Source of the DNA: Cnuella takakiae
GTDB taxonomy: Bacteria; Bacteroidota; Bacteroidia; Chitinophagales; Chitinophagaceae
Assembly: GCF_001953305.1 (NCBI RefSeq)
Contig: NZ_MTFE01000010.1
Span: 3,042,772 to 3,106,771, forward strand
Length of the DNA stretch: 64,000 nt
Direction of reading: 5' to 3'
Shown: piece after piece, positions 4,180 through 20,649 of the stretch
How positions within the stretch are numbered: the stretch's first letter is position 1
Layout of the letters: each line of letters opens with the position of its first letter
Notes under the pieces: model-generated
Told to the model about the DNA's origin: nothing
Database searches by the model: none
The model's input: only the letters and a program-made list of their open reading frames with translations
Made by a program: the position numbers and the translations under genes

Positions 4180-4803
4180 TCATCGGCTTGCTTCCATTAC
4201 CATAATCGCAGCCCTGCCTTGGTGACAAGGACCATTTTCCAATTGTACTAAGAGGTTTTCGCAACGTTCAATTGTTAGGTCAGCAAAATCATCGAGGAGC
4301 ATTTTAGTCGTATAAAGCAAGTTTGAATCTTCCGGTCCGCCTGTTTGGTAAGCCAGTTGCTTCCTGGCAAATCCAACCACCAGCAAGTGGCCACCTTTGT
4401 TTAAGGCAGCAACTAATTTGCCATGCAAGGCCTTCCTGTCGCCGGGTGGCAGATGCGCAAACACCAGGGCAATAGCATCATAACTTTTAACCGGGTTGAA
4501 TGCTGCTGCACTTGATTGAAAATAGCGCAGGCTTACTCCTGCTTCCATTGCATTTTGCAAAGCTTTCCGGATGGCTTCCCCGCTGTTTGTAAATGCATCA
4601 ACCTGCCAACCCATTTTTGCAGCATATATCGCATTGCAACCTGATCCCTCCAGGGGTAAGAGCAAACTGCCAGGCTCTTGGCGGGTCAGGAATTCCTGGA
4701 AATACCTGTTTGGCTCGCCGCCATACAGATGTGGATGGCCTGTAAATGGCTGTTTTCCGAATGCTGCTTCCATAAAACAATTTCCATATATCTGCTTGTT
4801 CAT
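4180..4803 (-). CDS. Class I SAM-dependent methyltransferase (TehB-like)
   Basis: A 207-residue cytosolic protein with the fold order of small SAM methyltransferases. A degenerate motif I at about residues 47-60 (LLLPLEGSGCNAIYAAKMGW) precedes an acidic-type strand end (VDAF), then SYDAIALVFAHLPP (post-motif, about 107-120) and LNKGGHLLVVGFARKQL (about 134-150). Family members of this size methylate small molecules or confer tellurite resistance; substrate unknown. Motif I has E-G-S-G in place of the usual D/E-x-G-x-G-x-G, so SAM binding is probable but unproven. Monocistronic, with its own terminator, divergent from proB. Confidence 0.75.
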   Translation of the reverse strand: MNKQIYGNCFMEAAFGKQPFTGHPHLYGGEPNRYFQEFLTRQEPGSLLLPLEGSGCNAIYAAKMGWQVDAFTNSGEAIRKALQNAMEAGVSLRYFQSSAAAFNPVKSYDAIALVFAHLPPGDRKALHGKLVAALNKGGHLLVVGFARKQLAYQTGGPEDSNLLYTTKMLLDDFADLTIERCENLLVQLENGPCHQGRAAIMVMEASR

Positions 4804-4950
4804 CAGGTGACAAGTATCACATAACCGTGAAGAATTCTTTATTGCCGCTTCAATTTGGGCGGATTAGAACCTTTTCAATAAATCCTGCTATTTCGTGAAC
4901 AATATGCAAGAGCAAAGCAATAATTTTAACAAGTTTCAATTAAACAGCCC

Positions 4951-5988: not shown

Positions 5989-5997
5989 GCAAGAACA

Positions 5998-7239
5998 ATG
6001 GAAAGCATTTTACCCCTGCTGCAAAAAACACATAAAGCTGCCTCCAGCCTCCGGGCCAGCACCGATGCGCAACTCCGCAAAACGCTCCTGAGCATGGCCG
6101 ATCTGTTGGAAGCAGACAGCAAAGCCATCTTAAAAGCCAACCAAAGCGATGTGGCCCGGCAGGAACCCAACGACCCCCGTACCGACCGCCTGCTACTAAA
6201 TGAACAACGTATTGGGAGCATTGCCAATGCTATGCGCCAGATCAGCAAGCTGCCCAATCCCGGTGGCAAACTGCTGGAGAAACGCAAGCTGCCAAATGGC
6301 TTACTGCTGCAGAAAATAGCCGTACCCCTTGGCGTGGTTGGTGCCATCTACGAATCGCGCCCCAATGTAACCTTCGACATTGCCGCACTTTGCATCCGCA
6401 GCGGCAATGCCTGTGTACTCAAGGGCAGCAGCGAAGCCGAAGCAACCAATAAGGCCGCCATCAAGATCATCAAAGCAGCTTTAAAGGAAAATGGCATCAA
6501 CCCGGATTGTGTTACCCTTTTGCCTGCGGCAAGGGAAACGGTTGCCGAGCTGTTTACCGCCACCCGTTACGTGGATGTCCTGATCCCGCGCGGCTCCGAT
6601 GGATTGATCCAATATGTAAGGAAAAACAGCCTGGTGCCGGTAATTGAAACGGGTGCGGGTGTTTGCCATATTTACGTGGAATCGGAAGCAGACCTGAAGA
6701 AGGCCCTCAGAATTGTGGTAAATGCCAAAACATCCAGGCCCTCGGTGTGCAATGCTGTTGACGCTATACTGGTTGACGAAGCGATTGCTGCAGACTTCCT
6801 GCCTTCGCTCGCAGCAGCCTTTTTGCCCTTTGAAGTGGCGGTTTTTGCCGCACCCAAGGCTGCCCGCCAGTTGAAGGGGTATCCCTTTTTGCAGGAGGCC
6901 AGGCCTGAAGATTTTGGAAGGGAGTTCCTGAGTCTTCAATGCGCCATCAAAACAGTTAAGAACCTGGATGAGGCACTGGCGCATATCAGTGCCTTCTCTA
7001 CCCGCCATTCCGAAGCCATTATATCGCGCAACAAAGCCCAGTGCAAACGTTTTGTACAGGAAGTGGATGCCGCAGCTGTGTACACCAATGCCTCCACCCG
7101 TTTTACCGATGGAGAAGAATTTGGGCTGGGTGCTGAAATAGGCATTTCTACCCAAAAGCTGCATGCAAGAGGGCCATTTGCATTGGAGAAATTGGTAACG
7201 GAAAAATGGGTCATTGAAGGAAACGGCCAGATTCGTTAA
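5998..7239 (+). CDS. proA: Gamma-glutamyl phosphate reductase
   Basis: Reduces gamma-glutamyl phosphate to glutamate semialdehyde with NADPH, the second proline step. The 413-residue length is normal. Diagnostic stretches: PLGVVGAIYESRPNVTFDIA (about 110-129), IPRGSDGLIQYV (about 196-207), VIETGAGVCHIYVES and the catalytic cysteine at about residue 251 in KTSRPSVCNAVDAILV. The C-terminus has TNASTRFTDGEEFGLGAEIGIST. Directly downstream of proB, so the unstable intermediate can be passed between partner enzymes. Confidence 0.97.
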   Translation: MESILPLLQKTHKAASSLRASTDAQLRKTLLSMADLLEADSKAILKANQSDVARQEPNDPRTDRLLLNEQRIGSIANAMRQISKLPNPGGKLLEKRKLPNGLLLQKIAVPLGVVGAIYESRPNVTFDIAALCIRSGNACVLKGSSEAEATNKAAIKIIKAALKENGINPDCVTLLPAARETVAELFTATRYVDVLIPRGSDGLIQYVRKNSLVPVIETGAGVCHIYVESEADLKKALRIVVNAKTSRPSVCNAVDAILVDEAIAADFLPSLAAAFLPFEVAVFAAPKAARQLKGYPFLQEARPEDFGREFLSLQCAIKTVKNLDEALAHISAFSTRHSEAIISRNKAQCKRFVQEVDAAAVYTNASTRFTDGEEFGLGAEIGISTQKLHARGPFALEKLVTEKWVIEGNGQIR

Positions 7240-7325
7240 TAGTAGTGTGGTGTTGTCAAGGTTATGCCGTATACGCTATCCTTTTGGCAATCGCCTATCT
7301 TCGTCCCGGCTTTAAACCTGCAACC

Positions 7326-7802
7326 ATGAGCGAAAAGAACGGATTGGATGAAATTGACCGCAAGATCCTGAACGAACTGGCTAGGGATGCCGAAAAACCT
7401 TATTCCCAGATTGCCAAAAGCCTGGATGTTTCCAATACAATGATCCACCAGCGGATTGCGCGGATGAAGCAGTTGGGTGTAATTGAGCAAACGGAAATAA
7501 AGCTGAATGAAAAGCACCTGGGTTATGGCTCTTCCGCATTTACCGGTATCATCTTAAAAGAAGTTTCCAATACAGCTAAAGTGATGGAAGCCCTTGACAA
7601 GATTCCTGAAGTGGTGGAATGTTATTTTGTTTCAGGCGCCTACAACCTGTTTGTAAAAATTATTGCCAAAAACAATGACCACCTGATGCATGTGTTGTAT
7701 GAAAAAATTGACAGCATTAAAGGAATCGTTCGAACAGAAACCCTGATCAATTTCCGAACGGTAATCAAAAGAGGTTGCCCTATTCCGGATGCAGATATAT
7801 AA
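7326..7802 (+). CDS. Lrp/AsnC family transcriptional regulator
   Basis: A 158-residue DNA-binding regulator, normal length for the family. I start it at the ATG at 7326 (MSEKNGLDEIDRKILNEL) and not at the upstream in-frame ATG at 7245, which would add a non-family extension. Winged helix at about 8-60 (YSQIAKSLDVSNTMIHQRI is the HTH); ligand-binding RAM domain at about 75-150 (AFTGIILKEVSNTAKVMEALDKI). It sits just after proBA on the same strand, 86 bases downstream, and is closed by a strong terminator. Regulation of amino-acid metabolism is the family expectation; the actual targets cannot be read here. Confidence 0.92.
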   Translation: MSEKNGLDEIDRKILNELARDAEKPYSQIAKSLDVSNTMIHQRIARMKQLGVIEQTEIKLNEKHLGYGSSAFTGIILKEVSNTAKVMEALDKIPEVVECYFVSGAYNLFVKIIAKNNDHLMHVLYEKIDSIKGIVRTETLINFRTVIKRGCPIPDADI

Positions 7803-7821
7803 ATCCAGTAACAAAATTACA

Positions 7822-7844
7822 GCCACCTCAGGGTGGCTTTTTTT
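7822..7844 (+). terminator. Rho-independent terminator after the Lrp gene
   Basis: Stem GCCACC / GGTGGC (7822-7827, 7832-7837) with loop TCAG, followed by seven T. Ends the proBA-lrp side transcript ahead of pckA. Confidence 0.93.
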
Positions 7845-7959
7845 ATGTTTTTACCGGTATGTTATTCGGATAAAAGCTTCGGTGTTCAAACTTTAGCTTT
7901 CGTGTATAAATGACACCTATTCGCACGTTTAAAAATATTTTTCGTTTTATTGTGGGTGG

Positions 7960-7994
7960 TTTGGTGTCAAAATTGCTTTTATACCCTAGCTTTA
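7960..7994 (+). promoter_or_regulatory. Possible Bacteroidota-type promoter of pckA
   Basis: TTTG (7960-7963) and TAGCTTTA (7987-7994) approximate the Bacteroidota -33 TTTG and -7 TAnnTTTG elements, spaced 23 nt, ending 16 bases before the pckA ATG. The -7 box has one mismatch at its last base, so this is tentative. Confidence 0.35.
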
Positions 7995-8010
7995 TTTAAA
8001 AGACGCACCC

Positions 8011-9621
8011 ATGTACCAACGATTACTTGCCACAATTGAACAACAACTCTGGTGCCATGGCATTCGCCGGCCCAAAATGTATTACCAGTGTACCGCTGAA
8101 GAACTGAGTGCCCAAACGGTGGCCCTGGGCCAGGGTGCGCTGGATGAAAACGGAACGCTGGTGATTCACACCGGAACTTTTACAGGACGATCGCCCAAGG
8201 ACAAATACTTTGTAAAAGACGAACTGGCGGAAGAGTACATCCACTGGAACGAATTCAACCAGCCTATAGAACCGGCTTGTTCGGAGCAATTGCGCCGCCG
8301 GATGATGGCATACCTCTCTACCCGCGACCTTTGGATCAGGGATGCTTTTGTTTGTGCCGACCCGCAATATTCCATTTCCCTGCGGGTGATTTCCGAAAAG
8401 CCCTGGGCCAGCCTTTTTGCTGGCAATATGTTCATCGCTCCCAAGGGCCGCGAAATACAGGATTTTGAACCCGAATGGAATATTTTTCATGCCCCCGACT
8501 TCGAAGCCATACCTGAAAAAGACGGAACACGCTCCCCTCATTTCGTCATAATAGATTTTGGAATGAAGCTGATCCTGATTGGCGGTACGGCCTATACCGG
8601 CGAGATTAAAAAGGGCATGTTTACCGTACTCAACTACCTGTTGCCCCAACAGCAGGTGCTGCCTATGCATTGCTCGGCCAATGTGGGTACGGCGGGCGAT
8701 GTGGCCCTATTCTTTGGGTTGAGTGGTACCGGTAAAACAACCCTGAGTGCAGACCCTAACAGGCGCCTGGTGGGTGATGACGAGCATGGCTGGAGTGATA
8801 CCGGCGTGTTTAATTTTGAAGGCGGCTGTTATGCCAAATGCATCGACCTGAGCCCGGAAAAAGAGCCCGAAATCTTTGCTGCCATCAGGCCGGGTGCCAT
8901 GCTGGAAAATGTGCAGTTTTTTCAGGGTACCAATCAGGTGAATTATGCCGACGGCTCCCTTACTGAAAATACACGGGTTTCTTACCCGCTTTCCTTTATT
9001 TCCAATGCCCTGCAACCCTCGGTAACGGGTATTCCGGAAAATATCTTTTTCCTGACCTGTGATGCTACAGGTGTACTGCCTCCCATTTCGAGGCTTAGCC
9101 CTGAGCAGGCCATGTACCATTTCCAGGCAGGGTATACTGCCAAGATTGCTGGTACCGAAGCGGGTGTTACGGAGCCCAAGAGCACTTTCAGTCCTTGTTT
9201 TGGTGCACCCTTTCTTCCCCTGCACCCCGAAACTTATGCCCAGATGCTGGGTGAAAAGATCAGGGGTAATGAGGTGGCGACCTGGCTGGTAAATACCGGT
9301 TGGACCAGTGGTTCTTATGGTATTGGTCACCGCATCTCACTCAAGGTAACCCGTGCCCTGATCAATGCGGCCTTAAAAGGCGAATTGGAAAAGGTAGCCT
9401 ACCAAACCGAACCTGTGTTTGGTTTGCAAATGCCAACCAGTTGCCCCGGTGTTCCCGAAGGTTTGCTCAACCCTCGGGATGTATGGACCGACAAGGATGC
9501 TTATGATGCTGCGGCTGCAAAACTCAAACAGCAGTTCGATGAGCATATGGAAAAGGTGCGGCAGTCGAAAGTGCAAAGTCAGCGGGGCGTGTTTCGGACA
9601 TCACTGAGCAGGGTGATTTAA
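8011..9621 (+). CDS. pckA: Phosphoenolpyruvate carboxykinase (ATP)
   Basis: Converts oxaloacetate and ATP to PEP, CO2 and ADP, the entry to gluconeogenesis. The 536-residue length is standard. Motifs: HTGTFTGRSPKDKYFV (about 54-69), the substrate/Mn region GGTAYTGEIKKGMFTVLNYL (about 191-210), kinase-1a P-loop FGLSGTGKTTLS (about 236-247) and kinase-2 GDDEHGWSDTGVFNFEGGCY. The ATG follows an AT-rich promoter-like stretch; a hairpin terminator lies about 155 bases past the stop. It stands alone between terminators. Confidence 0.98.
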   Translation: MYQRLLATIEQQLWCHGIRRPKMYYQCTAEELSAQTVALGQGALDENGTLVIHTGTFTGRSPKDKYFVKDELAEEYIHWNEFNQPIEPACSEQLRRRMMAYLSTRDLWIRDAFVCADPQYSISLRVISEKPWASLFAGNMFIAPKGREIQDFEPEWNIFHAPDFEAIPEKDGTRSPHFVIIDFGMKLILIGGTAYTGEIKKGMFTVLNYLLPQQQVLPMHCSANVGTAGDVALFFGLSGTGKTTLSADPNRRLVGDDEHGWSDTGVFNFEGGCYAKCIDLSPEKEPEIFAAIRPGAMLENVQFFQGTNQVNYADGSLTENTRVSYPLSFISNALQPSVTGIPENIFFLTCDATGVLPPISRLSPEQAMYHFQAGYTAKIAGTEAGVTEPKSTFSPCFGAPFLPLHPETYAQMLGEKIRGNEVATWLVNTGWTSGSYGIGHRISLKVTRALINAALKGELEKVAYQTEPVFGLQMPTSCPGVPEGLLNPRDVWTDKDAYDAAAAKLKQQFDEHMEKVRQSKVQSQRGVFRTSLSRVI

Positions 9622-9776
9622 AAAGCGTTTTATAAATAAGCTGATGAAGGGAACGGTATGGCCCTGACAATTGCTAGAGGCCGATGTTGAATTGAGAATA
9701 CACAAATCCTAAATGCCTTACCTACCTTATACATGGTATAGGAACAACTCCTTTTCGCTTGCTTGTTTTTCTGGAA

Positions 9777-9804
9777 GCCGGTCATTTGACCGGCTTTTCT
9801 TTTT
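9777..9804 (+). terminator. Rho-independent terminator downstream of pckA
   Basis: Stem GCCGGTC / GACCGGC with an ATTT loop, followed by TTTTCTTTTT. It lies between the pckA stop and the start of the next gene at 9819, so it also shows that 9819 is the real start and not 9759. Confidence 0.85.
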
Positions 9805-9818
9805 CCTACATTCGGTGC

Positions 9819-10889
9819 ATGAGCGTTGAACTGGACAAGCCCTCCCGTAAAAAAACCTTTTACCCTGTTAGCAAGGGCCTGCGGTCCTACCTGAAAAAGC
9901 ATGGCCGGGAAGCAACGCTCCCCCTGGTGTACCAGGACCTGATGAACATGTCTTTTTCTATTCCACTTAAAGACAAAGCAGGCAAAGACACCTATTGGGA
10001 AAAAACGCTCTACGATATGCGGGAGTGGAATTTTCTTCGGACCGAACTGATCAACCTGTATGCAATCCTGAAAACCGAAGGCGATTTTTCTTATACCAAG
10101 CACCTGGATGTTGCCAGGGTTGATTACTGCACTTTCGGCAACTCGAACCCCTTCCGGGTGCGTATTGTAAACAGGTATAACGACAACTACGATCATTATT
10201 ATATCAAAAAGGAAGATGCCTCCCGCATTTATGGGCTGGAACTGGAGCACCTCTTATCACCCAACCGCATTACTTATCTTACAGCACCGGGCACCATCGT
10301 GGAAGAACATGTGGCTGGCATTCCAGGCGATGTGTTCATACAACAATACCTCGATGCTCCGGACACCAACCGAACCCGTTTTGCCAAGGAGTTTGTGAAG
10401 TTCAATGAGCGGTGTTTTGTAAGGCTGCTCGGAGACATGCGCAGCTACAACTGGGTAGTGGACATCACACCCGATATAGAAGATTTTCAGTACCGCATCC
10501 GCGCCATCGATTTTGATCAACAGAGTTACGAAGGCAGAAAGAACCTGTACCTGCCCCAGTTCTTCAAAGAGAACCGGCCGCTTGTTGAACTGGCATCGCA
10601 ACTGCTAAACATGGAAACAGTAAAGCAGTACCAAACGGAAGAAAGAACCATGATGGCCTTCCGGCTAGCTTCCGATAAATACCGCATCAAAGACCTATTG
10701 GATACCATGCAAACAGATGAAATATCCACGCAACAAAAGATCGCCGAACTGGCTATTGCACTTAATCAACATTTTGGCACCACGCAATTTAAATCGCAGG
10801 GCTCCATGGGTGAGTTGGTAAAGTGTCACCTAAAGCAAACCTTGCGTAAGGAGTTATTGCACGTGCCCAAGATGAACAGCCGGCATTAA
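9819..10889 (+). CDS. Conserved-looking protein with kinase-like catalytic loop, function unknown
   Basis: A 356-residue soluble protein that I do not recognise as a named family. The start is set at the ATG at 9819 (MSVELDKPSRKK), because an upstream in-frame ATG (9759) would place a terminator inside the gene. The middle part reads LLGDMRSYNWVVDI (Asp206, Asn210), followed 25 residues later by YRIRAIDFDQ (Asp231, Asp233). This spacing and pattern resemble the catalytic HGD-xxxx-N loop and the IDFD metal-binding loop of aminoglycoside-phosphotransferase/HipA-type kinases. There is no clear glycine-rich loop at the N-terminus. It could be an atypical kinase or a pseudo-kinase. Monocistronic, preceded and followed by hairpins. 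Confidence 0.72.
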   Translation: MSVELDKPSRKKTFYPVSKGLRSYLKKHGREATLPLVYQDLMNMSFSIPLKDKAGKDTYWEKTLYDMREWNFLRTELINLYAILKTEGDFSYTKHLDVARVDYCTFGNSNPFRVRIVNRYNDNYDHYYIKKEDASRIYGLELEHLLSPNRITYLTAPGTIVEEHVAGIPGDVFIQQYLDAPDTNRTRFAKEFVKFNERCFVRLLGDMRSYNWVVDITPDIEDFQYRIRAIDFDQQSYEGRKNLYLPQFFKENRPLVELASQLLNMETVKQYQTEERTMMAFRLASDKYRIKDLLDTMQTDEISTQQKIAELAIALNQHFGTTQFKSQGSMGELVKCHLKQTLRKELLHVPKMNSRH

Positions 10890-10992
10890 GAGCTTCAAAG
10901 GCTTGTAGCAGGCTTATTGTTGCAACAGGTTCTTGTCCTGCAGATGCCTTTCAGTAAATCCTTCAATTTCATTTTTGTAATTAAGGAAAGAG

Positions 10993-11014
10993 AATGCCGA
11001 CATAGGTCGGCATT
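10993..11014. terminator. Hairpin between convergent genes
   Basis: Arms ATGCCGAC / GTCGGCAT (10994-11001, 11006-11013), extended by an A/T pair, with loop ATAG. U-tracts are weak on both strands (TAAAATC; TTCTCTTTCC). Its position between convergent genes (stops 10889 and 11109) suggests a bidirectional terminator. The rest of this gap is AT-rich, with an imperfect 7-nt period at about 11077-11104. Confidence 0.5.
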
Positions 11015-11108
11015 AAAATCTTACCACTTAAATAAGCTTGTACCGCCATTTGCTGAGGTGCACAATAAACTTAGCCAAACTATAAATCAAAAACTAAAAA
11101 CCTTATCC

Positions 11109-13103
11109 TTACTGCACATCTCCATCTTCACCCTGCTGTTTGTTGAAATCATTGAGGATTTCACTGGCAGTAGAATCGCCTTCAGAGATGGCTTGCATCA
11201 GCAGTCGACTGCCCCTTACAATATCGCGGTCAAAGGAACAACGGTTGTATTTGGCCACACGAAGAACCTGCTGGTTTTGACCAAACAGGTAGAGAAAACC
11301 AAGGGTTCTTTTGGCTGGGGTATAATCCCTTTCCGCTGCTTTTTCCACCATTCCAAAAGCGGAGTTGCAATCAAGCCCGGAATGTTCGGCTTTAAGGGCA
11401 CGGTTGCCATATTCAAACAGTGCTTCAGGCACTTCCTGCGCTGCCAGGGTTTTATAAATTTCTATCGCATCATCCTTATTTCCCTGCTCCAGCAATTGTT
11501 TGGCTTGCTGCAACTGCTGGTTGATTTCAATTTTGGTAAGCTGTACCGGCTTTGTTGCCTCCTGTGCCTGCCATTCCTCCAAGGGCATCAGGTCGGCTTT
11601 CTGCAGCCAGCCTTTGGAGGTTTGCCCCCTGCTGTTGGTAAACTCCGTATATATAAAATCGCCCTGTTCTTCCAATGCTTTGATAATTTCTTCCGAAGGA
11701 ACGAGGTAAGCGCCCCTACGGGAAGCTTCATCCGCTTCATTGTGAAAATAAGCGCGGTCGTTTACCACCTTGTATTCACCAATCACCTTCCTGGGCTGCT
11801 CGGCTTTGGTTTCCTTGGGTTGCTCGATAGTAGTTACCGGTTTTTTTGTGGCCTCTTGCTTGCCGGCAAACAGGTTGCTGATGGCCATGTAAATGATGGC
11901 ACCAATAATAAATAAACCCAACAGGATCATGGGCAGGCGCAGGCTGCGGTCGCGGCGGGCGGGTTGCCGTTGTGCCGGTGCAATAGCCGGTTCGGGTCGG
12001 TTTGCATAAGCCTGCAGTTCGCGGTCCTTACGGGTAAGTGCCACACGCAGGTTCACCAGTTCCTGCTCCTTTGCCTGCACCTGTTCGGTTTGCTGTTGCA
12101 ATGATTTTTGCAGTTCGCTTTTTTCCCTGCGCAATTGCTCGTTTTCCTGCTGCCAGGCCGTTGTCGGTGCAGCGGTTATGTTGCCTGTTTTCCGGGTTTG
12201 TGTGCTGTGCAAAACCAGAAATTCCTGCAAAGCAGCTCCATCCTTAAACCGGGCATCAGGCTTCTTTTCCAGGCACTGCGCGATCATATCCAGCAACCAT
12301 TGCGGCACATGGCTTTCCCGGTCTTTTTTCTCCGAGCTCCAGCCTTCCGGCAAATGTTCCGCACGCAGGGTCATCGGGTCTGGGACGGTTGCCTCCATGT
12401 GCTGGAGTCTTACTTCGTTGCGGGCATGTTCGTTGCGGTTTGATAAGGGAAAGGGAACCCTTCCTGCCAGGAGTTCAAAAAGGATAATGCCAAATGCGTA
12501 AATATCACTTTGCGGCAGCAGCAATCCATCATTCTGCTCCGGTGCCATAAACTCGATGGCGCCGGCCTGCCGCAAACTGGTGCGCCGCTGTTCGTCGCTC
12601 ATGATGGCCAGCCCGAAATCGAGCAGTACGTAATTGCCGGTATGTATGTTGAACTTGACGTTGTTGCTTTTTATATCACCATGCCGGATGCCCAGCCGGT
12701 GACAATGCGCCAGTGCATTGGAAAGATGGTCGGCAACCTTGATGGCTTCCTTGATGGTAAAAATTGGTTCATGTGGCGGTTGCAGCAGTTCCTCGAGGTC
12801 GGGGCCTTCAATGAACTCCATTTCAATAAAAGGCAGCGAGCCGCTTTCTGTTATACCCGAACTCAGGATTTTGACAATATTGGGGTTGGGCTGCTCGCTT
12901 ACCCTTTTCAGCTTGGCCACCTCGTTCAGGAAATCTACATAGTGCTTATCATGTTCACTCTCGCTATGTATGGGTGTGGGCAGCAGTTTTACTGCCGTGA
13001 TGATGGGTCCCATCCGCCGTGCCTTATACACCGAACCCTGGCCACCCGTTTTAAGGGCACCCATGTTCTCCAATCCCTCTGTTATGGTAAATACTTTCGA
13101 CAT
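11109..13103 (-). CDS. Membrane-anchored Ser/Thr protein kinase with SH3-like and Sel1-like C-terminus
   Basis: Hanks-type kinase, 664 residues. Kinase domain at about 1-295: glycine loop TGGQGSV (19-25), AVK lysine (Lys39), catalytic loop HGDIKSNN (141-148; RD is replaced by GD), DFG (162-164), APE (187-189). A coiled coil (about 317-372) leads to one membrane span (about 390-409, LPMILLGLFIIGAIIYMAI). The outside part has an SH3-type module (about 442-505, ending GWLQKADL) and Sel1/TPR-like helices (about 540-650). PASTA repeats, the usual outside domain of PknB-type wall kinases, are absent. Last gene of a block with an FHA protein, SEDS-PBP and PP2C, so it probably phosphorylates those partners. 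Confidence 0.9.
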   Translation of the reverse strand: MSKVFTITEGLENMGALKTGGQGSVYKARRMGPIITAVKLLPTPIHSESEHDKHYVDFLNEVAKLKRVSEQPNPNIVKILSSGITESGSLPFIEMEFIEGPDLEELLQPPHEPIFTIKEAIKVADHLSNALAHCHRLGIRHGDIKSNNVKFNIHTGNYVLLDFGLAIMSDEQRRTSLRQAGAIEFMAPEQNDGLLLPQSDIYAFGIILFELLAGRVPFPLSNRNEHARNEVRLQHMEATVPDPMTLRAEHLPEGWSSEKKDRESHVPQWLLDMIAQCLEKKPDARFKDGAALQEFLVLHSTQTRKTGNITAAPTTAWQQENEQLRREKSELQKSLQQQTEQVQAKEQELVNLRVALTRKDRELQAYANRPEPAIAPAQRQPARRDRSLRLPMILLGLFIIGAIIYMAISNLFAGKQEATKKPVTTIEQPKETKAEQPRKVIGEYKVVNDRAYFHNEADEASRRGAYLVPSEEIIKALEEQGDFIYTEFTNSRGQTSKGWLQKADLMPLEEWQAQEATKPVQLTKIEINQQLQQAKQLLEQGNKDDAIEIYKTLAAQEVPEALFEYGNRALKAEHSGLDCNSAFGMVEKAAERDYTPAKRTLGFLYLFGQNQQVLRVAKYNRCSFDRDIVRGSRLLMQAISEGDSTASEILNDFNKQQGEDGDVQ

Positions 13104-13128
13104 GTATGTATGCGGTTAGCAAGTTAAA

Positions 13129-13161
13129 AAGCTTCAGGCTGTTTGCGTTTGCCTGGAGCTT
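13129..13161. repeat. Hairpin between FHA and kinase genes
   Basis: Arms AAGCTTCAGGC (13129-13139) and GCCTGGAGCTT (13151-13161) pair at 10 of 11 positions over an 11-nt loop. It lies in the 88-bp gap inside the putative operon and has no T-tract. It may tune expression of the kinase relative to the upstream genes. Confidence 0.5.
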
Positions 13162-13191
13162 CTAGCTGCAAGTAGTTGCAGTATTTCTGGT

Positions 13192-13968
13192 CTAGGCTTC
13201 ATAACCAAACTCCAGCAGGGCCGAATCGCCCAGGATGATCTGGTCGCCATGCTGGAGGGTATAACCAATATGTGTGCTTTGCAGTTTCACAGGTTCATTT
13301 CCACCCGTGCGCACCTTTACCTTGTTGCGTGGCGGAATGCCCCCTTCGTCAGCAAATAGCTGGAAAGCACCTACTTCTTCGCTCCATTCTACATGCGCAT
13401 GCTGGCGACTTACAAACCTGTTGGCTTCCTGGCTGCTTTGGGCAAGGAATGCAATTTTATTTTCGCGGTGAAATCCGTCACCCGCCTGTACCATCTTATC
13501 GCGGCCGATGGTAATTTTCCCGGAGGCTGCATCAAACTGGTACCGGGCCTGTTCCGTTTCGCCCTGCTGAACGATGATGTATCCTTTGCGCAATCCCTGG
13601 GTGGCAATTTTTCTTTTCCGGCTGTCCACCAGCATTGCGGCCTGCAAGCCCGGAGCCTGGACCGCCTCGGCAGGTGCAGGCGCAAATGCCAGTTCAAAAT
13701 TCCATTCCAGGGGCAGGTCAAGGGCATAGTCGTCTGCAATGCGCTGAACCTCCTCCCGGAACTGGTCTTCTGACCCTTCAAATACCGCAGCGGCATACTG
13801 GCTTCTTTCCCCTTCGGCGGGGAAAAGATAAAGCTGTATGCTGCGGATATTACCGCCTTCGCCACCCTCCCACTGCTGTAATTGATCTTTTATAAAAAGG
13901 AGCAATTGCTGGCGGATGTTCTTGACATCTGAAGGGATTTCTTCGTTTTTAAAAAACTTTGAAAACAT
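13192..13968 (-). CDS. FHA-domain protein (phosphothreonine reader)
   Basis: A 258-residue cytosolic protein. C-terminal FHA domain (about 150-255): ITIGRDK (strand with the conserved GR), then RFVSRQHAHVEW (187-195) with the Ser-x-x-His that contacts phosphothreonine, and a closing GDQIILGDSALLEFGY. The N-terminal about 95 residues form a separate alpha/beta domain (IRSIQLYLFP, YAAAVFEGSEDQFREEVQRIADDYA), which recalls the N-terminal domain of actinobacterial FhaA in layout only. It probably docks the phosphorylated kinase or SEDS-PBP. It lies between the SEDS-PBP gene (115 bases) and the kinase gene (88 bases) on the same strand. Confidence 0.88.
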   Translation of the reverse strand: MFSKFFKNEEIPSDVKNIRQQLLLFIKDQLQQWEGGEGGNIRSIQLYLFPAEGERSQYAAAVFEGSEDQFREEVQRIADDYALDLPLEWNFELAFAPAPAEAVQAPGLQAAMLVDSRKRKIATQGLRKGYIIVQQGETEQARYQFDAASGKITIGRDKMVQAGDGFHRENKIAFLAQSSQEANRFVSRQHAHVEWSEEVGAFQLFADEGGIPPRNKVKVRTGGNEPVKLQSTHIGYTLQHGDQIILGDSALLEFGYEA

Positions 13969-14083
13969 AAGCTCTTTTTAAAGGTTGCGCAAAATATTGT
14001 GTTCCCTTCTTCCACCTGTTCCAATCATATTTTAACCAGGTTGGCAGGTATAAACTTGCAACTTACAGGGCCTGCAAGCTCGA

Positions 14084-17000
14084 TCAATAACCTTGAACAT
14101 ATCCTCTTTGCAATAGTACCGGTATCACATGCCGGCCGGCAACCGCCACGGCAATACTGCTGCCTTTGGTGTCTTCTACCCGCACACAACAAACGGTATG
14201 TCCCTGGCCATTGGGTTTGGGGGCAAAAAACACGTACCACCCATCGTTGATCCTTTTGCCGCGTACAATTCTTTCAGGGGTACCGGTCTTTCCTGCAACA
14301 GCAATACCCAACCTGTCGCGCTTACCCGCACTTTGTGCCTGCATAAAGCCGGTTAGCAGCTGGGTATGCTCGGGCCTTTTGGCCAGCACCAGGCTGTCCT
14401 TTGGCGCTAATAACGAATCGGCTATCCGCAGTACATAACGGTTGTCGGTTAAAAACCCATTATTGGCAATACCTGCGGCCAGCCGGGCCACAGATGCCGG
14501 TGTGCTCACCAGCTCACCTTGTCCCCATGCCATACCCGAAATGCCCAGCCCTCGGGTTGCCCGGATATTATTGGGGTCGTAACGCCGTTTGCTCTGAAAC
14601 TCGGTAGCCCGCCAGGTTTTGCGCCATTGCTCTGCCTGGTAGGCATTGCCACCGTCAAAACTATAGTAATAGCCGCCCAGCCCCCGCAGGAACATCCCGG
14701 TTTGTATATACAGGGTGGCCATTTCCTCCTGGAGGCTTTCTTCGTTGGCCAGCCTAATAAAATATGGATTGTTTGATTTTACAATGGCCCGCTCCATACC
14801 AATGGTGCCTGTTTCATCTGGCTCATCGCCACGGGTGCGCACCAGGTCCTGTTGCCTGATCTGGAAGCTGCGGCGGGCGGCGGCATCGCCCAATTTATTG
14901 AAGGCAGCCAGTGCCGTCAGCAGTTTGGCTGTAGAGCCGGGCTGCGTGGCATGCGTAAACCCAAGATCTGCCGTTGTAACAAAAGTGCCCAGTTGTGCCT
15001 GCTGTCTTGCGGAAAGGGTGAGCAGGTCCCAGTCGTCAACCGGGGGTAAAGGATAAAGTGCAGAAGCCAGCACATCACCTTGGATATCGTCCATTACCAC
15101 AATGGACACTCGGCTGTTGCGGATGGTTTCGTCTGTTTGCAGCGATTGCTGGATTGCGGTTTGCAAACCTGCGTCGATGCTCAGTTGCATATCCCGGTTC
15201 TTTTGTTTGAAGCTATCCACCAGCGGGCTGTTGATTCCCGACAACAACATGGGCGAGAGTGCGCGGTAGTCCCTGCGGGCCACAACCATTTCGCGTGCTT
15301 CACGCGGCAGGAAAGGATCTTCGCGGAAACGGGTTGCTACTACCTGTTGGTTGGAAATGGGCGTGGGAAATCCCCGCAATTCGGCACCGTGCTGGTATTC
15401 GGCAAAATAGCCATTGTTGCCGCCGGTGAATACGCCGGTATTGGCATCGCCCGTCCAGAAGAAAGCATGGGCACCGAAGGGGTAATATCGATCCTGGCGT
15501 CGGTGACTCAGGGCTTCCAGTTCGAAGGCCATCAGCCCCGATTTCACCAGGGTATCTTTTTGCTGCACCAACAACCGGGGCTTGCTGGTTGCCAACAACA
15601 CCCCTTTCCTGTCGTAAATATTGCCCGCCTGCAAGCGGTTCATGAGGATGGCAATACGGGGGTTGTAGCTGTACATCCGGGCACCGCTCCGTTCCGCTAC
15701 CAGCGCAGGTTCTACCACCCAGCGTTTGTTGTTGAACAGGTATCGCGACACATTTACACCCAGCAGTATGATTCCTATACCGGCTGCTACCAATGCAGGC
15801 ATCAGGTTGCGATCCTGTTGTTTACCGATATAGTTCATTTGTGCCGGCGAGCCCTGCACCAGGGAAACGGACAGCAGGAAACCCGCAGCCACCATGTTCA
15901 TGATGAGCGAAGAGCCGCCATAGCTTACGAAAGGTAAGGCCACCCCCGACAGCGGAAGGGCTCCGGTAGAGCCGCCTGCAATCAGCACAAATTGCACAAA
16001 GGTGCTGATGCCGATACCTGCTGCCAGGTAAAACAGAAAGGGCCGGCCCGTTTGCCTGCCGATAACGATGGCCCTGTGTAGGTACACCAGAAAAAGGACA
16101 AACACACTAATGATACCTGCCCAGCCAAACTCTTCGCCAAAAGCGGGCAGGATCATATCGGTATGTGCTTCGGGAATGGTTTTGCCAAAACCCTCACCAA
16201 TGCCCTGCCCACGAATGCCACCACTGGCCATCGCCCAGATACCATTGGCTACCTGGTCGCCGCCAAATACATTATTGTCCCAGGCATTTTCCCAGATGGC
16301 CTTTCGGTCGGTAAGGCGCTGAATGGGGCCGGGGAAAAGCAAGTCTAATAAAGGCACCTGGTCCAGGAGCAGGAAGGCAGCGATCACCACAACGGCCATG
16401 ATGGCTGGTTCACTGATCTGTTTGCGAACAAAGAAATACAGGGCCCCCATCAGTACAAAAGTGATGGCCGTTCCAATCCATACATTTCCGGTAGCCCAAA
16501 CTGCAAGGGTGTACAATACCACGGCTGCAATGGTTTGAGCAAAATCGCCGCGGGCAAAAGACAGCAGGATGATAAACGTAAAGCAGACCACCATGGCAGG
16601 CCCTAAATCGCCCAATACCAGGAAGAGGAAAATGATAGCGAGCACAGCTGCGAGTGCAAAGGAGAAAAAACGCCAGCGGCTGCGTGCTGTGGCATACCCT
16701 GAAATAAATCTTTCGTTGGCAGTAAAGAAACCGGCAAGAAATACCAGCAGAATAAAGCGCACCAGCTCGCTGGGCTGAAAACCAAAGAGGTTGACTTTTA
16801 CACCGCTGCCCTCGGGGCCGGTACCAAATAGAATGGTAAGCGCCAATAAGGCCAGGCCAAGCGCAGCCCAGGGCCAGCCGTTGGCCGCACCCTTGTGCTG
16901 TTTGAAATAAAATAAGCGGAACAAGCCCGAGTCTGGCGTGAAACGCCTGAGGTCAAAAAGCATCAGCAGGGATAGTAGCACGATGCCTATGGTGAAGAAG

Positions 17001-18148
17001 CTGAGCATGTCGCGCACCAGGAAGCGGTCGCGCAAGGGATCCTGGAGGCTGAACAGGGTAAGTATGGAAAATCCTGTTAGCAGGAACACGACGGGCAATA
17101 TCAACTGGTCGGCATGGGCAAAACGAAAGGACAGCAAGCCATGCACCAGCCAGAATGCAGCAAAAAACACCCCGCAGATGATCCAAAACCAATTGTTTAC
17201 CTCGGCAGGTGTGCGCACAATGAGCGCACCTTCTTTTTTTAGGTTGTTGAAATCCCTGGTGCTGAGCAGTTTGATGGTATGCGGCGTTTGCAGGAAAGCA
17301 AAGTCGGGATCTCCTTTTAAAGCACTTATGCCCTTAGCACCTCCGAATTGAAACCCAGGTTGTAGCGGCAGCACCGAAAATGCTTTGCCCTTTGGCAAAC
17401 CGCCAAATTCCGCTTCCCCATCCTCGTTGGTACGTGCATAAGCTACCAGCGATTGCAACTGCCTTTGGCCTCCTTCATTGAGGATGAAGGTCTTTTCAAA
17501 TCCCGCGCCCTTTTCGGTTTGCAACCTGTTTACCTCTACTACGGCATTGCTGTACAGGCTATCCTGTGGTAAAACCAGGTTGAGGCGCACCAGTACACCT
17601 GCAACAGGGTCTCCTTCACGGTTTACAATAGTTGCTGTAATCTCCTGATTACCCAAGCCGGCCTGCACCTTTTGGGGAGCGGAAATGGGCTTTTGTACCT
17701 CCTGCTCAAATAAAAGGGAATCCGGGCCGGAAAAACCAATCAGCTCGCGGGAAAGCGCCACCCTTTTTTGAAAGGAAGCACCGCCTTTTGCATATGCCTC
17801 GTTTGCCTGCACATAGTATTTGCGTTTGTTCAGTTCGCCGATGTTGTCCACCGGCTCCTGGTCATCGCGCAGGCGGGTGGTGAGTATGGAACTAACGAGG
17901 TTGATGTCCCTGTAGTCCTCCAGGTAAAAGCCTTTTTGTAAAAGTGCCCGCACCTTGCCGCCGGGGTTCTCAGCGTTGAGGTTAACCATGCTGCCATCGC
18001 CAAGCCGTTGCGGCACATCAGTAAAGTCGCGTTGTAAAACGGTATACAGTTGGTAAAAAAGCAAACCCAACACCAAGGTTGCCATTAAGAGAAACAGCCT
18101 TTCTATTCCCCGGCCTTTTTTTATCATCGGTTTTTCGGCCATCTTCAT
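14084..18148 (-). CDS. SEDS (FtsW/RodA) glycan polymerase fused to class B penicillin-binding transpeptidase
   Basis: 1354 residues combining both reactions of peptidoglycan assembly. The start is the ATG at 18148, overlapping the phosphatase stop as ATGA. TM1 at about 16-38; an outside region of about 300 residues (39-345) with an Ig-like stretch (GDPVAGVLVRLNL); the SEDS core at about 355-780 with FGFQPSELVRF (Gln458), LGDLGPAMV, PEAHTDMILPAFGEEFG (His662) and LPFVSYGGSS (about 740). The PBP domain (about 830-1345) has all three penicillin-binding motifs: STAK (nucleophile Ser1072), SNN (1125) and KTGT (1287). SEDS and class B PBP are normally separate partner proteins; here they form one chain. 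Likely in septation or elongation. Phosphatase upstream, FHA and kinase downstream. Confidence 0.93.
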   Translation of the reverse strand: MKMAEKPMIKKGRGIERLFLLMATLVLGLLFYQLYTVLQRDFTDVPQRLGDGSMVNLNAENPGGKVRALLQKGFYLEDYRDINLVSSILTTRLRDDQEPVDNIGELNKRKYYVQANEAYAKGGASFQKRVALSRELIGFSGPDSLLFEQEVQKPISAPQKVQAGLGNQEITATIVNREGDPVAGVLVRLNLVLPQDSLYSNAVVEVNRLQTEKGAGFEKTFILNEGGQRQLQSLVAYARTNEDGEAEFGGLPKGKAFSVLPLQPGFQFGGAKGISALKGDPDFAFLQTPHTIKLLSTRDFNNLKKEGALIVRTPAEVNNWFWIICGVFFAAFWLVHGLLSFRFAHADQLILPVVFLLTGFSILTLFSLQDPLRDRFLVRDMLSFFTIGIVLLSLLMLFDLRRFTPDSGLFRLFYFKQHKGAANGWPWAALGLALLALTILFGTGPEGSGVKVNLFGFQPSELVRFILLVFLAGFFTANERFISGYATARSRWRFFSFALAAVLAIIFLFLVLGDLGPAMVVCFTFIILLSFARGDFAQTIAAVVLYTLAVWATGNVWIGTAITFVLMGALYFFVRKQISEPAIMAVVVIAAFLLLDQVPLLDLLFPGPIQRLTDRKAIWENAWDNNVFGGDQVANGIWAMASGGIRGQGIGEGFGKTIPEAHTDMILPAFGEEFGWAGIISVFVLFLVYLHRAIVIGRQTGRPFLFYLAAGIGISTFVQFVLIAGGSTGALPLSGVALPFVSYGGSSLIMNMVAAGFLLSVSLVQGSPAQMNYIGKQQDRNLMPALVAAGIGIILLGVNVSRYLFNNKRWVVEPALVAERSGARMYSYNPRIAILMNRLQAGNIYDRKGVLLATSKPRLLVQQKDTLVKSGLMAFELEALSHRRQDRYYPFGAHAFFWTGDANTGVFTGGNNGYFAEYQHGAELRGFPTPISNQQVVATRFREDPFLPREAREMVVARRDYRALSPMLLSGINSPLVDSFKQKNRDMQLSIDAGLQTAIQQSLQTDETIRNSRVSIVVMDDIQGDVLASALYPLPPVDDWDLLTLSARQQAQLGTFVTTADLGFTHATQPGSTAKLLTALAAFNKLGDAAARRSFQIRQQDLVRTRGDEPDETGTIGMERAIVKSNNPYFIRLANEESLQEEMATLYIQTGMFLRGLGGYYYSFDGGNAYQAEQWRKTWRATEFQSKRRYDPNNIRATRGLGISGMAWGQGELVSTPASVARLAAGIANNGFLTDNRYVLRIADSLLAPKDSLVLAKRPEHTQLLTGFMQAQSAGKRDRLGIAVAGKTGTPERIVRGKRINDGWYVFFAPKPNGQGHTVCCVRVEDTKGSSIAVAVAGRHVIPVLLQRGYVQGY

Positions 18149-19542
18149 CGTATTTGGGTTGTGTCGGAAAACAGGGAATCTGAAACCATCAGGTTGGCCG
18201 GACTGTTCACGGGTGCGGTGCCGCTCATTTGCACCGGCACGGCGCAATTCAGGAACTGTACATTCTTCAGCTGTACACTGTGTCCACCAGCAAGGATAGC
18301 GGTTTCAAAATTTTCAAAAACCATATCCTCCAAAACCAGGTGTTTGTTTTTAGGGCCCAAGGAAAAGGCAGCACCGCTAAAACTGGAGTCGGCAACCAGG
18401 TGCAACCCGTTTCCTTTGATCAGCAAACTATCACTTTGGACAAGAAGGGTATCTTGCACGGTTATCATTTGCCGGGTGTTGTCCATCCAGTTGAGGGTGT
18501 CTGGGGCAGCTGCAAGATTTGCTTCCAGTTTCTGGAACAAAGGGTCGGGCGGTATAACGGCGATGCTTGCTGGCTTTTGTTGCTGTTGCCAGATAAATAA
18601 GACTGTAGCCAGAATAAGTGGCAGCAAAACGAGGTAGGGAATCCATGCTTTCTTTTTCTTCACCGGCTGTTGCATTGCAACGGGGTCCTTGGCAGCCTGT
18701 TCCGCTGGTTGGGGCACAACTGGGGAAACTGGCGATACTTTCTTTTTTCTGCCCGGTTTGCCCTTGGGCTTTATGGCTTTTTGGTTTTGTGGCTTGCGGC
18801 TATGCCGCACCAGCACCACCGTAATATTGTCTTTCCCTCCTGCCCTGTTGGCGGCATCAATCAGCCGTTCCGTTTTTTGGGGCAAAGCATCTTCAGAAGC
18901 CAGTACTGCCCTTATGTCTGCTGCAGTTACCAAGTCGGTCAGGCCATCGCTGCACAGCAGCAAAATATCGCCCGGCAGGTAGGGTGATGTGCCGGTGTCG
19001 AAATAATCTTTTTGGTTGCGCAACTGCAGGTCAAAGCCAAGGGCTTTGTCGATCTCGTTGCGTTTCAAATGGTGCATGGCCTCGCCCTCGCTCAGCTTAC
19101 CGCTGTCTTCAAGAAAGCCAACAAACGACTGGTCGCGGGTAACTTTTACCAGCGAACCATCCCGGTACAGGTATAGGCGGGTATCGCCTACATGGATGTA
19201 ATGGAGGGTATTGGATTGTTCATCGGCCAGCACGAGGGTAGCCACACAGGCCATATCGGCCAGTTTGGGGTTTGCCCTGCGCTCGGCAAGAATGCGGTCG
19301 TTAGCCGCGGTCATGGCTTCCAGCATCATGGTGGCTGCGCTGCCCGAAGGCACACTCAGGTATTCTAGCAGGGTATCATGTGCCAGTTGTGCCGCCACTT
19401 CGCCGCCTTCATAGCCGCCCACGCCATCAATAACACAGGCTGCCAGGTAAGCACCCTGCATCACCGGCTGTACAAAGAAACTGTCTTCATTGTTGGACCT
19501 TACCATCCCCTTGTGGGTAGCTCCAAAATAGAGGTTAGTCAT
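18145..19542 (-). CDS. PP2C-type Ser/Thr phosphatase with membrane span and beta-helix-like outside domain
   Basis: 465 residues. PP2C domain at about 1-247 with the metal ligands in VRSNNEDSF (Asp20), VIDGVGGYEGG (Asp39), SDGLTDL (Asp199) and GGKDNITVVLV (Asp238). A Lys/Pro-rich linker leads to a single span (about 301-319, IPYLVLLPLILATVLFIW). The outside tail (about 345-465) contains short rung-like repeats (LLIKGNGLHLVADSS, LVLEDMVFENFETAIL, VQLKNVQFLNCAVPV) suggesting a small right-handed beta-helix. It should reverse the kinase encoded downstream. Its stop overlaps the SEDS-PBP start (ATGA), and its own start lies inside the end of the 31-residue ORF, so translation is coupled on both sides. 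Confidence 0.92.
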   Translation of the reverse strand: MTNLYFGATHKGMVRSNNEDSFFVQPVMQGAYLAACVIDGVGGYEGGEVAAQLAHDTLLEYLSVPSGSAATMMLEAMTAANDRILAERRANPKLADMACVATLVLADEQSNTLHYIHVGDTRLYLYRDGSLVKVTRDQSFVGFLEDSGKLSEGEAMHHLKRNEIDKALGFDLQLRNQKDYFDTGTSPYLPGDILLLCSDGLTDLVTAADIRAVLASEDALPQKTERLIDAANRAGGKDNITVVLVRHSRKPQNQKAIKPKGKPGRKKKVSPVSPVVPQPAEQAAKDPVAMQQPVKKKKAWIPYLVLLPLILATVLFIWQQQQKPASIAVIPPDPLFQKLEANLAAAPDTLNWMDNTRQMITVQDTLLVQSDSLLIKGNGLHLVADSSFSGAAFSLGPKNKHLVLEDMVFENFETAILAGGHSVQLKNVQFLNCAVPVQMSGTAPVNSPANLMVSDSLFSDTTQIR

Positions 19543-19630
19543 GCCTGCGGTGGGTCTTTTTAATTTCCAGGAAATGCGCAGCCAGCAGCAATACTATGAT
19601 CAGCAGCAGGGCAAGGGAAAGATTGGCCAT
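19535..19630 (-). CDS. 31-residue single-span membrane peptide
   Basis: Short reading frame opening with ATG (19630-19628): MANLSLALLLIIVLLLAAHF, followed by a Lys/Arg/His-rich tail (EIKKTHRRHD). It has one hydrophobic helix (about 4-20) and a positively charged C-terminus, so N-out/C-in topology is expected. The stop overlaps the first 8 bases of the phosphatase gene, a coupled arrangement typical of real small genes. It sits between the FHA-like gene and the phosphatase in the wall-signalling block. Function unknown; it might tether or regulate a partner. It could instead be a translation-coupling leader. Confidence 0.6.
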   Translation of the reverse strand: MANLSLALLLIIVLLLAAHFLEIKKTHRRHD

Positions 19631-19695
19631 AGAGAAAGTTTATGCCAGGCTTGGTTAAGGGTTAATCAAACAGGGTAGCGATGAAACACCCGCTA

Positions 19696-20649
19696 TCAAC
19701 CTTTGAACAGGTTGATACCCACAATACCGTTCAGCACCATTCTTGAATTAACGGGCACTTCCGTCCACTGGGGATCAGTGGCAGGGCTGCGCCTGATCTC
19801 CTGTTCGTTTACCACGGTTTTTTCGCCAAAAGAGGCTACAAAAAACTTTGCCGAAGACCGGTCAAAGCGTACCCTGAGGTGTGGTGTATTCACCCACTCG
19901 GAAGGCACCTTAAAAATATTGGCGGCAGTACGGGTTTCATCTTTGCCCGACACCACGATCTCTTCATCCTGCATCAGGTACTCCAGCTTTTTGCCCGAAA
20001 ATGCCTTATCGGGCAGGATGGTTTCCAGTCGGGCCAGCGCACCGGAGGGCTGGCTGCTGATGCTGTTCTGCGTATAGGCCAGCTCGGTAGTAAAAGGCAC
20101 TTCGTAGTAACCTTCACTGTAAAAAGTAAACCCTTTGAGGATTTCGGGATTAACATCCAGGGTTTGGGCTATGCCCGTTTGACGGGGAATAAAGGTCACC
20201 CTTAGGTTATCGTTTTGCTGGGCCGCGGCGCCGGGCAGGAGCTTGCCAATAAAGCCCAGGTCGCCCCGCACATAGTCGGGGTGCGACACAAAACGGAATA
20301 CCCACTTGGATGCTGAAGGCTCTACGTTTTTACCTTCCGCTTTAAAAGATTTGAGCTTGTCGTAAAAGCCCCGTACCGCCTCCTGCACAATCAGGCCGAA
20401 AATGCCTTTTTTGCTGTCCATGAAATCCTGGTAGTCCTCGGCATTGAAGCAGATGATGTACTCATGGAAAAAGACGATGCGACTGGCAAAGGACAGTTCC
20501 TTAACCGACTCATCAAACTTTTGCCCGATATAGTGAAACACATCGTTGGGGGTAACGGCAGGCGCTTTGGCTTTTGTAGCCTCCGGGTCTTTTTTCACCA
20601 GCCACTCGTGCAGGCCCAGGCGCTGCCAAAAAGAAGGTTTTGTGTTCAT
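19696..20649 (-). CDS. FHA-like protein with degenerate phospho-binding loop
   Basis: 317 residues, cytosolic, start at the ATG at 20649 (MNTKPSFWQRL); TTG codons lie further up. The N-terminal domain (about 30-125) reads TPNDVFHYIGQKFDESVKEL and VFFHEYIICFNAEDYQDF, then SKWVFRFVSHPD. It has the helix plus strand layout of the N-terminal domain of actinobacterial FhaA, a resemblance by eye only. The C-terminus (about 225-317) looks like an FHA beta-sandwich (EEIVVSGKDETR, VNTPHLRVRFDRSSAKFFVASFG) but lacks a clear GR and Ser-x-x-His. It may bind partners without phosphothreonine. First gene of the block, 65 bases ahead of the small peptide. Confidence 0.7.
   Translation of the reverse strand: MNTKPSFWQRLGLHEWLVKKDPEATKAKAPAVTPNDVFHYIGQKFDESVKELSFASRIVFFHEYIICFNAEDYQDFMDSKKGIFGLIVQEAVRGFYDKLKSFKAEGKNVEPSASKWVFRFVSHPDYVRGDLGFIGKLLPGAAAQQNDNLRVTFIPRQTGIAQTLDVNPEILKGFTFYSEGYYEVPFTTELAYTQNSISSQPSGALARLETILPDKAFSGKKLEYLMQDEEIVVSGKDETRTAANIFKVPSEWVNTPHLRVRFDRSSAKFFVASFGEKTVVNEQEIRRSPATDPQWTEVPVNSRMVLNGIVGINLFKG

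Follow-up and report, generated by a model that had tools for sequence, protein, structure and literature searches.

A six-gene operon of Cnuella takakiae joining a kinase, a PP2C phosphatase and FHA proteins to a SEDS-PBP fusion, and its likely homology to the actinobacterial wall locus

The locus and its genes

The stretch of Cnuella takakiae DNA analysed here (64,000 nt of contig NZ_MTFE01000010.1, hereafter the window) carries a block of six minus-strand genes, which as read from the sequence spans nt 20649 down to nt 11109. It encodes two forkhead-associated (FHA) proteins, a small membrane peptide, a PP2C-type phosphatase, a fusion of a SEDS glycosyltransferase with a class B penicillin-binding protein (PBP), and a Hanks-type kinase. 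An earlier note had described this set, from the sequence alone, as a Bacteroidota version of the wall-control operon of Actinobacteria, and all six genes are in place as it described them. In gene order, the features are:

19696..20649, minus strand: FHA1, a FhaA-like protein of 317 aa; first gene; predicted FHA fold, degenerate in the lineage of the window
19535..19630, minus strand: transmembrane (TM) microprotein of 31 aa; open reading frame (ORF) with counterparts in relatives, dN/dS ~0.25
18145..19542, minus strand: PP2C phosphatase with a TM segment at 298-320 and a C-terminal outer domain of ~145 aa; PP2C_2, Stp1/IreP-type
14084..18148, minus strand: SEDS glycosyltransferase-class B PBP fusion of 1354 aa; FTSW_RODA_SPOVE and Transpeptidase
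13192..13968, minus strand: FHA2, an FHA-domain protein with no predicted TM segment; canonical IGR and SRQH
11109..13103, minus strand: Hanks-type kinase (non-RD, HGD) with a coiled coil, one TM segment, and outer strands and helical repeat; Pkinase
10993..11014, minus strand: terminator-like hairpin of nine pairs, 3' of the kinase; pattern match only

Pfam and NCBIfam name the kinase, PP2C, SEDS and transpeptidase parts, while FHA2 gives a weak FHA match and FHA1 none. The gene overlaps from which the earlier note had argued for coupled translation measure 8 nt (end of the peptide gene on the PP2C start) and 4 nt (fusion start codon, ATG at nt 18148, on the PP2C stop, as ATGA). Terminator-like patterns occur at 22 sites in the region against 15.8 expected, and a scan for sigma-70 promoters was uninformative (8 sites, 8.6 expected). 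Neither tRNA nor Rfam RNA was found in the block.

Conservation and distribution of the block

A profile built from nine fusion sequences recovered 288 relatives from the genome collection, the best 80 of which are the named loci referred to below. These belong mostly to genera such as Mucilaginibacter, Pedobacter, Segetibacter and Flavisolibacter, of the families Chitinophagaceae and Sphingobacteriaceae, with a few unclassified Bacteroidetes; the nearest named relative is Paracnuella (73% identity). Of the 80, 78 have FHA1, PP2C, fusion and FHA2 in this order on a single strand, and the two exceptions (L073, L098) are contigs that are cut before FHA1; counted as intact are L034 (fusion in two ORFs), L110 (FHA1 split), L032 (gap of 4.2 kb between fusion and FHA2), and L063 and L080 (FHA1 cut at the start of the locus). 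The core is flanked by one to three kinases of more than 300 aa in 75 named loci, and the remaining five touch contig ends. A kinase between PP2C and the fusion is found in none of the named loci; one or two occupy that position in L026, L027, L132, L134, L136, L138, L139 and L148. The same order, FHA1-PP2C-fusion-FHA2, recurs in genome G687, which belongs to another class of the phylum. An arrangement so consistently kept (78 of 80) goes far past what chance would give, and the co-occurrence in relatives that the earlier note had proposed as a check is seen both there and in the other class.

Several individual loci depart from the common form. In L034 (nt 8190-12482), from a metagenome assembly, the fusion is broken into two ORFs (266 and 1159 aa), and in L032 it is extra DNA that separates the fusion from FHA2. 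Pedobacter panaciterrae O48 carries the block twice on contig NZ_LGEL01000011.1 (L105 and L110), the FHA1 of L110 consisting of two ORFs. G771 carries a second, divergent SEDS-PBP fusion (L131, nt 112-9088) that has a kinase near it, and FHA or PP2C matches were not found within 14.7 kb.

Within Chitinophagaceae, the family of the window, 30 of 244 genomes (14 of 101 genera) have a fusion; the figures are 40 of 201 for the family of G114, 7 of 99 for the order of G812, and 12 of 296 for genomes sampled across the phylum. A class sample gave a full fusion in 3 of 198 genomes, with a fourth match that is SEDS alone, and an order sample gave 9 of 298, with three further matches to SEDS only. A complete block, in the order FHA-PP2C-kinase-kinase-fusion-FHA, lies on Spirosoma oryzicola plasmid NZ_CP089545.1 (136,743 bp; L148, nt 5481-16037), where the 18 features annotated in its surroundings include none named as a secretion gene. 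In the SEDS tree (see below) the fusions of G396 and G472, both of the window's family, group with that of Spirosoma and not with that of the window; this, together with the patchy distribution, suggests that the block has moved between lineages. Since most relatives are without it, the block is probably dispensable to its hosts.

The SEDS-PBP fusion and the other synthases of the genome

That polymerase and transpeptidase form one protein is borne out by Pfam matches of the 1354-aa product to FTSW_RODA_SPOVE (2.9e-44) and Transpeptidase (1.4e-17); the TIGR RodA model begins at residue 348. Hydrophobic segments at 13-33 and 317-335, and at 780-805 after the SEDS core, give a predicted topology of TM - outer domain - TM - SEDS - TM - transpeptidase, in which the last of these domains faces outward. 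The outer domain of the L126 fusion matches CarboxypepD_reg (1.1e-9). What we take to be the catalytic signature of a SEDS-class B PBP synthase, the SEDS Asp with the PBP motifs SxxK, SxN and KTG, is present, the window motifs lying at 662, 1072, 1125 and 1287. The SEDS His-Thr-Asp and the three PBP motifs are kept in 103 of 103 fusions longer than 900 aa, as counted by regular expression without fixed position (as were the PP2C and FHA1 motifs below) and confirmed by eye in ten.

The same genome has a RodA gene adjoining PBP2, and an FtsW-like SEDS gene about 5 kb from an FtsI-type PBP gene that is followed by MurE. The fusion is for this reason a third peptidoglycan synthase of the genome, its activity being predicted from the intact catalytic residues. 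SEDS-PBP fusions as such are already known: natural examples exist, for which the relevant part of PMC10449877 cites the Rhodococcus RHA1 genome. By their description these likewise combine polymerase and transpeptidase in one ORF, and that part of PMC10449877 mentions no kinase, PP2C or FHA block with them. No description of a block joining kinase, PP2C and FHA genes to such a fusion was found in the literature searched, subscription journals being largely outside its scope.

Kinase and phosphatase

The window kinase matches Pkinase (5.8e-34), and is one of three kinase matches in the host genome. Lys39, Asp143 and the DFG motif, all located in the window protein, are invariant in the kinase alignment. 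HRD is replaced by HGD in 132 of 139 kinases (HRD in four, no match in three), which places the enzyme among non-RD kinases. A single hydrophobic segment follows residue 290 in 136 of the 139, at about 390-412 in the window. In the predicted structure (mean pLDDT, the predicted local distance difference test score, of 86) the kinase domain is followed by a coiled coil and a TM helix, and the outer part, predicted with high confidence, is made of seven strands (442-507) and then helices (508-659). Foldseek places PknB, Stk1 and PknA at the head of the matches to the kinase part, and none to the outer part was recognisable among the 50 matches listed. The SH3-like and Sel1-like outer parts proposed in the earlier note therefore fit the predicted succession of strands and helices, but no library names them: TPR_16 gets no further than E 0.024 in the window kinase, and of 68 kinases one matches Sel1 and one TPR_16. 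Its statement that PASTA is missing agrees with our search, in which 0 of 68 kinases matched PASTA at E 0.01. Two of the 68 match an FHA domain within the kinase protein itself (best E 3.4e-10).

The phosphatase matches PP2C_2 (Pfam, E 1.5e-11), and all 87 of the relatives compared have the metal-binding motifs. It does possess an outside domain of its own, the ~145 C-terminal residues, as had been proposed; this tail has a faint pectate-lyase-like match (E 0.023) and in the alignment reads like a short beta-helix. The sensor parts differ from those of the actinobacterial locus, with no PASTA on the kinases, an outer domain on the phosphatase and an extra one on the synthase.

PrkC-PrpC and Stk1-Stp1 are PASTA kinase-PP2C pairs of Firmicutes. 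The Bacteroidota proteins are similar in that the nearest NCBIfam models are Stp1/IreP for the PP2C (3e-57; 193.8 bits, under the cut-off of 230) and the Stk1-family PASTA kinase for the kinase (146.5 bits against a cut-off of 450). They differ in the non-RD kinase, in which no PASTA was found, and in the attached wall-synthase operon.

In the one-contig genome G812 (L130, nt 8262-12416) PP2C (11-249), SEDS and PBP share one frame of 1384 codons, with the PP2C motifs intact and FHA1- and FHA2-like genes on its flanks. Such an in-frame joining of phosphatase and synthase is an expected result of physical partnership. PP2C and fusion are separate frames on one contig in G687 and G925, and lie on different contigs in G932.

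FHA proteins and membrane peptide

The window FHA1 has no Pfam domain (one chance match, E 0.2), and its predicted fold (mean pLDDT 77.6) has an FHA domain at its end. FHA1 relatives in other classes keep a canonical FHA domain and match FhaA_N beside the fusion, G674 with 27.4 bits (cut-off 25) and G812 with 18.4 bits, which is under the cut-off. FhaA_N was found in four of 198 phylum genomes (three over the cut-off), all four of which carry a fusion, and among 14 control genomes in C. glutamicum only. An FHA1 profile that includes the other-class relatives matches actinobacterial FhaA over both domains (probability 95, E 3e-8); against FhaB its probability is 13. A sequence search of the PDB with the L126 FHA1 gave weak FHA matches and no FhaA N-domain entry among the 15 matches listed, and a Foldseek search with FHA1 gave FHA-domain entries, including the FHA domain of FhaA, with no N-domain match recognised among the 50 listed. 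Additional FhaA_N-like proteins occur apart from a fusion in L174 (nt 8072-9373), L176 (nt 7521-8825) and L175 (nt 1854-5821); in L175 an FHA protein, the FhaA_N-like protein and a PP2C adjoin.

FHA2 has both IGR and SRQH, and matches Pfam FHA at E 0.0053, which is under the Pfam cut-off. Its identification with FhaB was considered and rejected, as profile comparison gave no match. The FHA2 relatives of G687 and G812 (L127, nt 11935-13305; L130, nt 12479-13753) have an N-terminal HEPN_Swt1 domain.

Between FHA1 and PP2C an ORF for a hydrophobic peptide of 22-59 aa (in most cases 28-35; the longer ones may begin upstream of the true start) is found in 92 of the 95 loci that have both genes, and L036, one of the three scored without it, has one by motif. 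For 77 peptides aligned at their common motif, the 849 pairs that passed a divergence filter give a ratio of nonsynonymous to synonymous change (dN/dS) of ~0.25, a rough value, as synonymous change is high and the final codons overlap PP2C; the nonsynonymous proportion (pN) is below the synonymous (pS) in 847 of these pairs. The ORF thus looks like a real protein under selection. It occupies the position of fhaB in the actinobacterial locus, and actinobacterial FhaB starts with a hydrophobic segment in the alignment; that the peptide descends from FhaB is a guess.

Relationship to the actinobacterial locus

In Tsukamurella (L149) and Actinomyces oris (L151), the source of the two annotated pkn loci obtained from the plasmid collection, genes for a DUF3662-FHA protein, an FHA protein, PP2C, FtsW/RodA, PBP, a kinase and a PASTA kinase make up the locus in that order (the Tsukamurella PP2C gene is absent from the annotation table and was recovered by profile). 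Nonomuraea and Arthrobacter show the same order by profile and ORFs, the Arthrobacter SEDS gene lying in two frames. Linkage of the pkn locus is kept throughout the Actinobacteria according to the part of PMC6554272 that concerns it.

The Bacteroidota block resembles this fhaA-fhaB-pstP-rodA-pbpA-pknA-pknB locus in having, on one strand and in the same order, a FhaA-like FHA protein (with an FhaA_N match in relatives from other classes), a PP2C, a RodA-type SEDS, a PBP and a kinase. It differs in that SEDS and PBP are fused and bear an extra outer domain, that the 31-aa peptide stands at the position of fhaB, that the second FHA gene follows the PBP and is unlike FhaB, and that no PASTA was found in the kinases. 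The synthase, moreover, is a third one beside RodA-PBP2 and FtsW/FtsI-type genes, the hosts are Gram-negative, and the block is patchy and once plasmid-borne. A partly similar group occurs in Monoglobus (Clostridia, L169), where an FHA protein adjoins SEDS and PBP genes closely related to the two parts of the fusion; there, however, the genes are unfused, and no kinase or PP2C was found by annotation or profile within 18.8 kb.

The SEDS tree (34 rows) unites 16 fusions in one clade. Six RodA of Actinobacteria and the SEDS of Monoglobus group with it, and a 99/98 split sets them all apart from 11 rows, among which are E. coli, Bacilli and both the RodA and the FtsW of the genome itself. In the SEDS and PBP trees the own proteins are L002 (RodA, adjoining the PBP2 L154), L001 (FtsW-like) and L155 (FtsI-type PBP beside MurE); further rows are L016 (FtsW-like) and L008/L171 (RodA beside PBP2 and MreB). 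Approximately unbiased (AU) tests, on groups chosen after inspection of the tree, reject a grouping of the fusions with Bacteroidota SEDS, at p 0.039 for three of FtsW-type, 0.0065 for three of RodA-type and 0.0016 for all six. The tree and these tests disfavour the candidate explanation that the fusion arose by duplication of the RodA or FtsW of the same genome. The PBP halves of four other-class fusions score best with the Monoglobus PBP in 4/4 cases, with an actinobacterial PbpA next; scores with the own PBP2 and with E. coli MrdA are generally lower, and neither the own FtsI nor E. coli FtsI was detected in these pairwise scores.

Taken together, the SEDS tree, the FhaA_N matches and the gene order make it likely, short of proof, that the window block is homologous to the actinobacterial locus. 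The following points weigh against this. Five rows of the SEDS tree were flagged for odd composition, the AU groups were, as stated, a choice made with the tree in view, and the actinobacterial rows were taken from the top matches of a search with a fusion; only L149, L151 and L152 come from pkn loci, while L150, L165 and L167, which we have ourselves labelled RodA, have no PP2C match nearby. The PBP tree, in which long branches meet, fails to unite the fusions with the PbpA of Actinobacteria, and for G687 and G771 E. coli MrdA or the own PBP2 exceed one or two PbpA. Both halves of the window fusion are too diverged for pairwise discrimination, the SEDS half scoring 95 bits with Tsukamurella RodA and 92 with Priestia FtsW. 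The window FHA1 has no FhaA_N match, the window genome and G110 having the fusion and no such match, and a profile from Bacteroidia FHA1 alone matches FhaA weakly (probability 11, E 0.0028), so that the window FHA1 by itself does not prove the homology. Its binding of phosphothreonine is doubtful as well, since SRxH occurs in just one of 84 FHA1 proteins. FHA2 lacks both a profile match to FhaB and a predicted TM segment. The joined frame of G812, finally, is a single case and might be a sequence error.

The comparison with Actinobacteria made in the earlier note is thus more literal than was claimed there, with FHA1 and the SEDS half looking homologous to FhaA and RodA in nearly the same gene order. 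Its view that all modules have been rebuilt is too strong, as the enzymatic modules seem to be inherited. The changes relative to the actinobacterial locus seem to lie in the outer sensor parts, in the fusion of SEDS to PBP, and in the peptide and the second FHA gene.

Proposed function and alternative explanations

We consider it probable that the operon is the Bacteroidota homologue of the actinobacterial locus and encodes a third synthase, with SEDS and a PbpA-like transpeptidase in one polypeptide, that is switched by the kinase. With its outer part the membrane kinase would sense conditions in the periplasm or wall, and it would phosphorylate itself and the synthase, or partners of the synthase, on threonine. 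FHA2 would then bind phosphothreonine, with FHA1 as a scaffold, and together they would recruit the synthase or switch it; PP2C, whose translation keeps step with that of the synthase, would undo the phosphorylation, and the 31-aa peptide would be a small membrane subunit of the complex. Such a scheme would agree with the earlier picture of a self-contained, phospho-regulated system of wall synthesis with a sensing logic of its own kind. The synthase might act upon wall damage, in stationary phase or at a change of growth mode.

A more detailed version, which we offer tentatively, is that the block is a mobile, pre-assembled and phospho-gated third synthase of actinobacterial-type descent, which would have spread among the Bacteroidota. 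It would include an obligate peptide of ~22-35 aa, possibly the remnant of an FhaB anchor, and exchangeable sensors would have replaced PASTA; in one lineage the synthase would carry its own phosphatase switch.

The operon may instead unite genes of separate pathways, the kinase, PP2C and FHA proteins controlling the envelope or a stress response, and the fusion being a bystander or the maker of a special wall, as in stationary-phase or spherical cells. The kinases do differ in number and position between loci, and the second fusion of G771 has only a kinase near it; yet FHA1, PP2C, fusion and FHA2 stay together in 78 of 80 loci, PP2C and fusion overlap in ATGA, and in one genome PP2C is in frame with SEDS-PBP, so that we regard such a separation as unlikely. 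Convergence is a further alternative, in which a duplicated SEDS-PBP came together with kinase, phosphatase and FHA genes within the Bacteroidota, and the actinobacterial locus is similar in function alone. The outer domains, which all differ, would be expected of independent assembly, as would an FHA2 without a match to FhaB, a PBP tree that does not place the fusions and the weak match of Bacteroidia FHA1 alone to FhaA. Against this stand the FhaA_N match that exceeds the cut-off beside a fusion in another class, the separation of the SEDS half from Bacteroidota RodA and FtsW (AU p 0.0016 to 0.039) and a gene order and direction nearly identical to those of Actinobacteria, and we judge it improbable. 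It is far less credible that a mobile kinase-phosphatase-FHA cassette of other purpose, such as secretion control or an antiphage module, acquired wall enzymes. The whole block does occur on the 137-kb Spirosoma plasmid, its distribution is patchy, and HEPN_Swt1 is present on the FHA2 relatives of G687 and G812; but no secretion genes are named in the annotation around the plasmid copy (18 features), the wall synthase is the constant core, and the gene order is that of the actinobacterial wall locus.

Implications

In Actinobacteria and Firmicutes, whose SEDS-PBP synthases are often essential and hard to dissect, the way in which Ser/Thr kinases control these enzymes is not settled. In C. takakiae and its relatives the same logic would be found in Gram-negative Bacteroidota that keep RodA-PBP2 and FtsW/FtsI-type genes, and the block, being likely dispensable, would be open to gene-by-gene deletion. 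As a single polypeptide holds both enzymes and another sensor has taken over from PASTA, one could also ask directly on which part control depends and to what signal it responds. As the Bacteroidota block has nearly the actinobacterial order, kinase-linked control of wall growth may be more widespread than has been thought.

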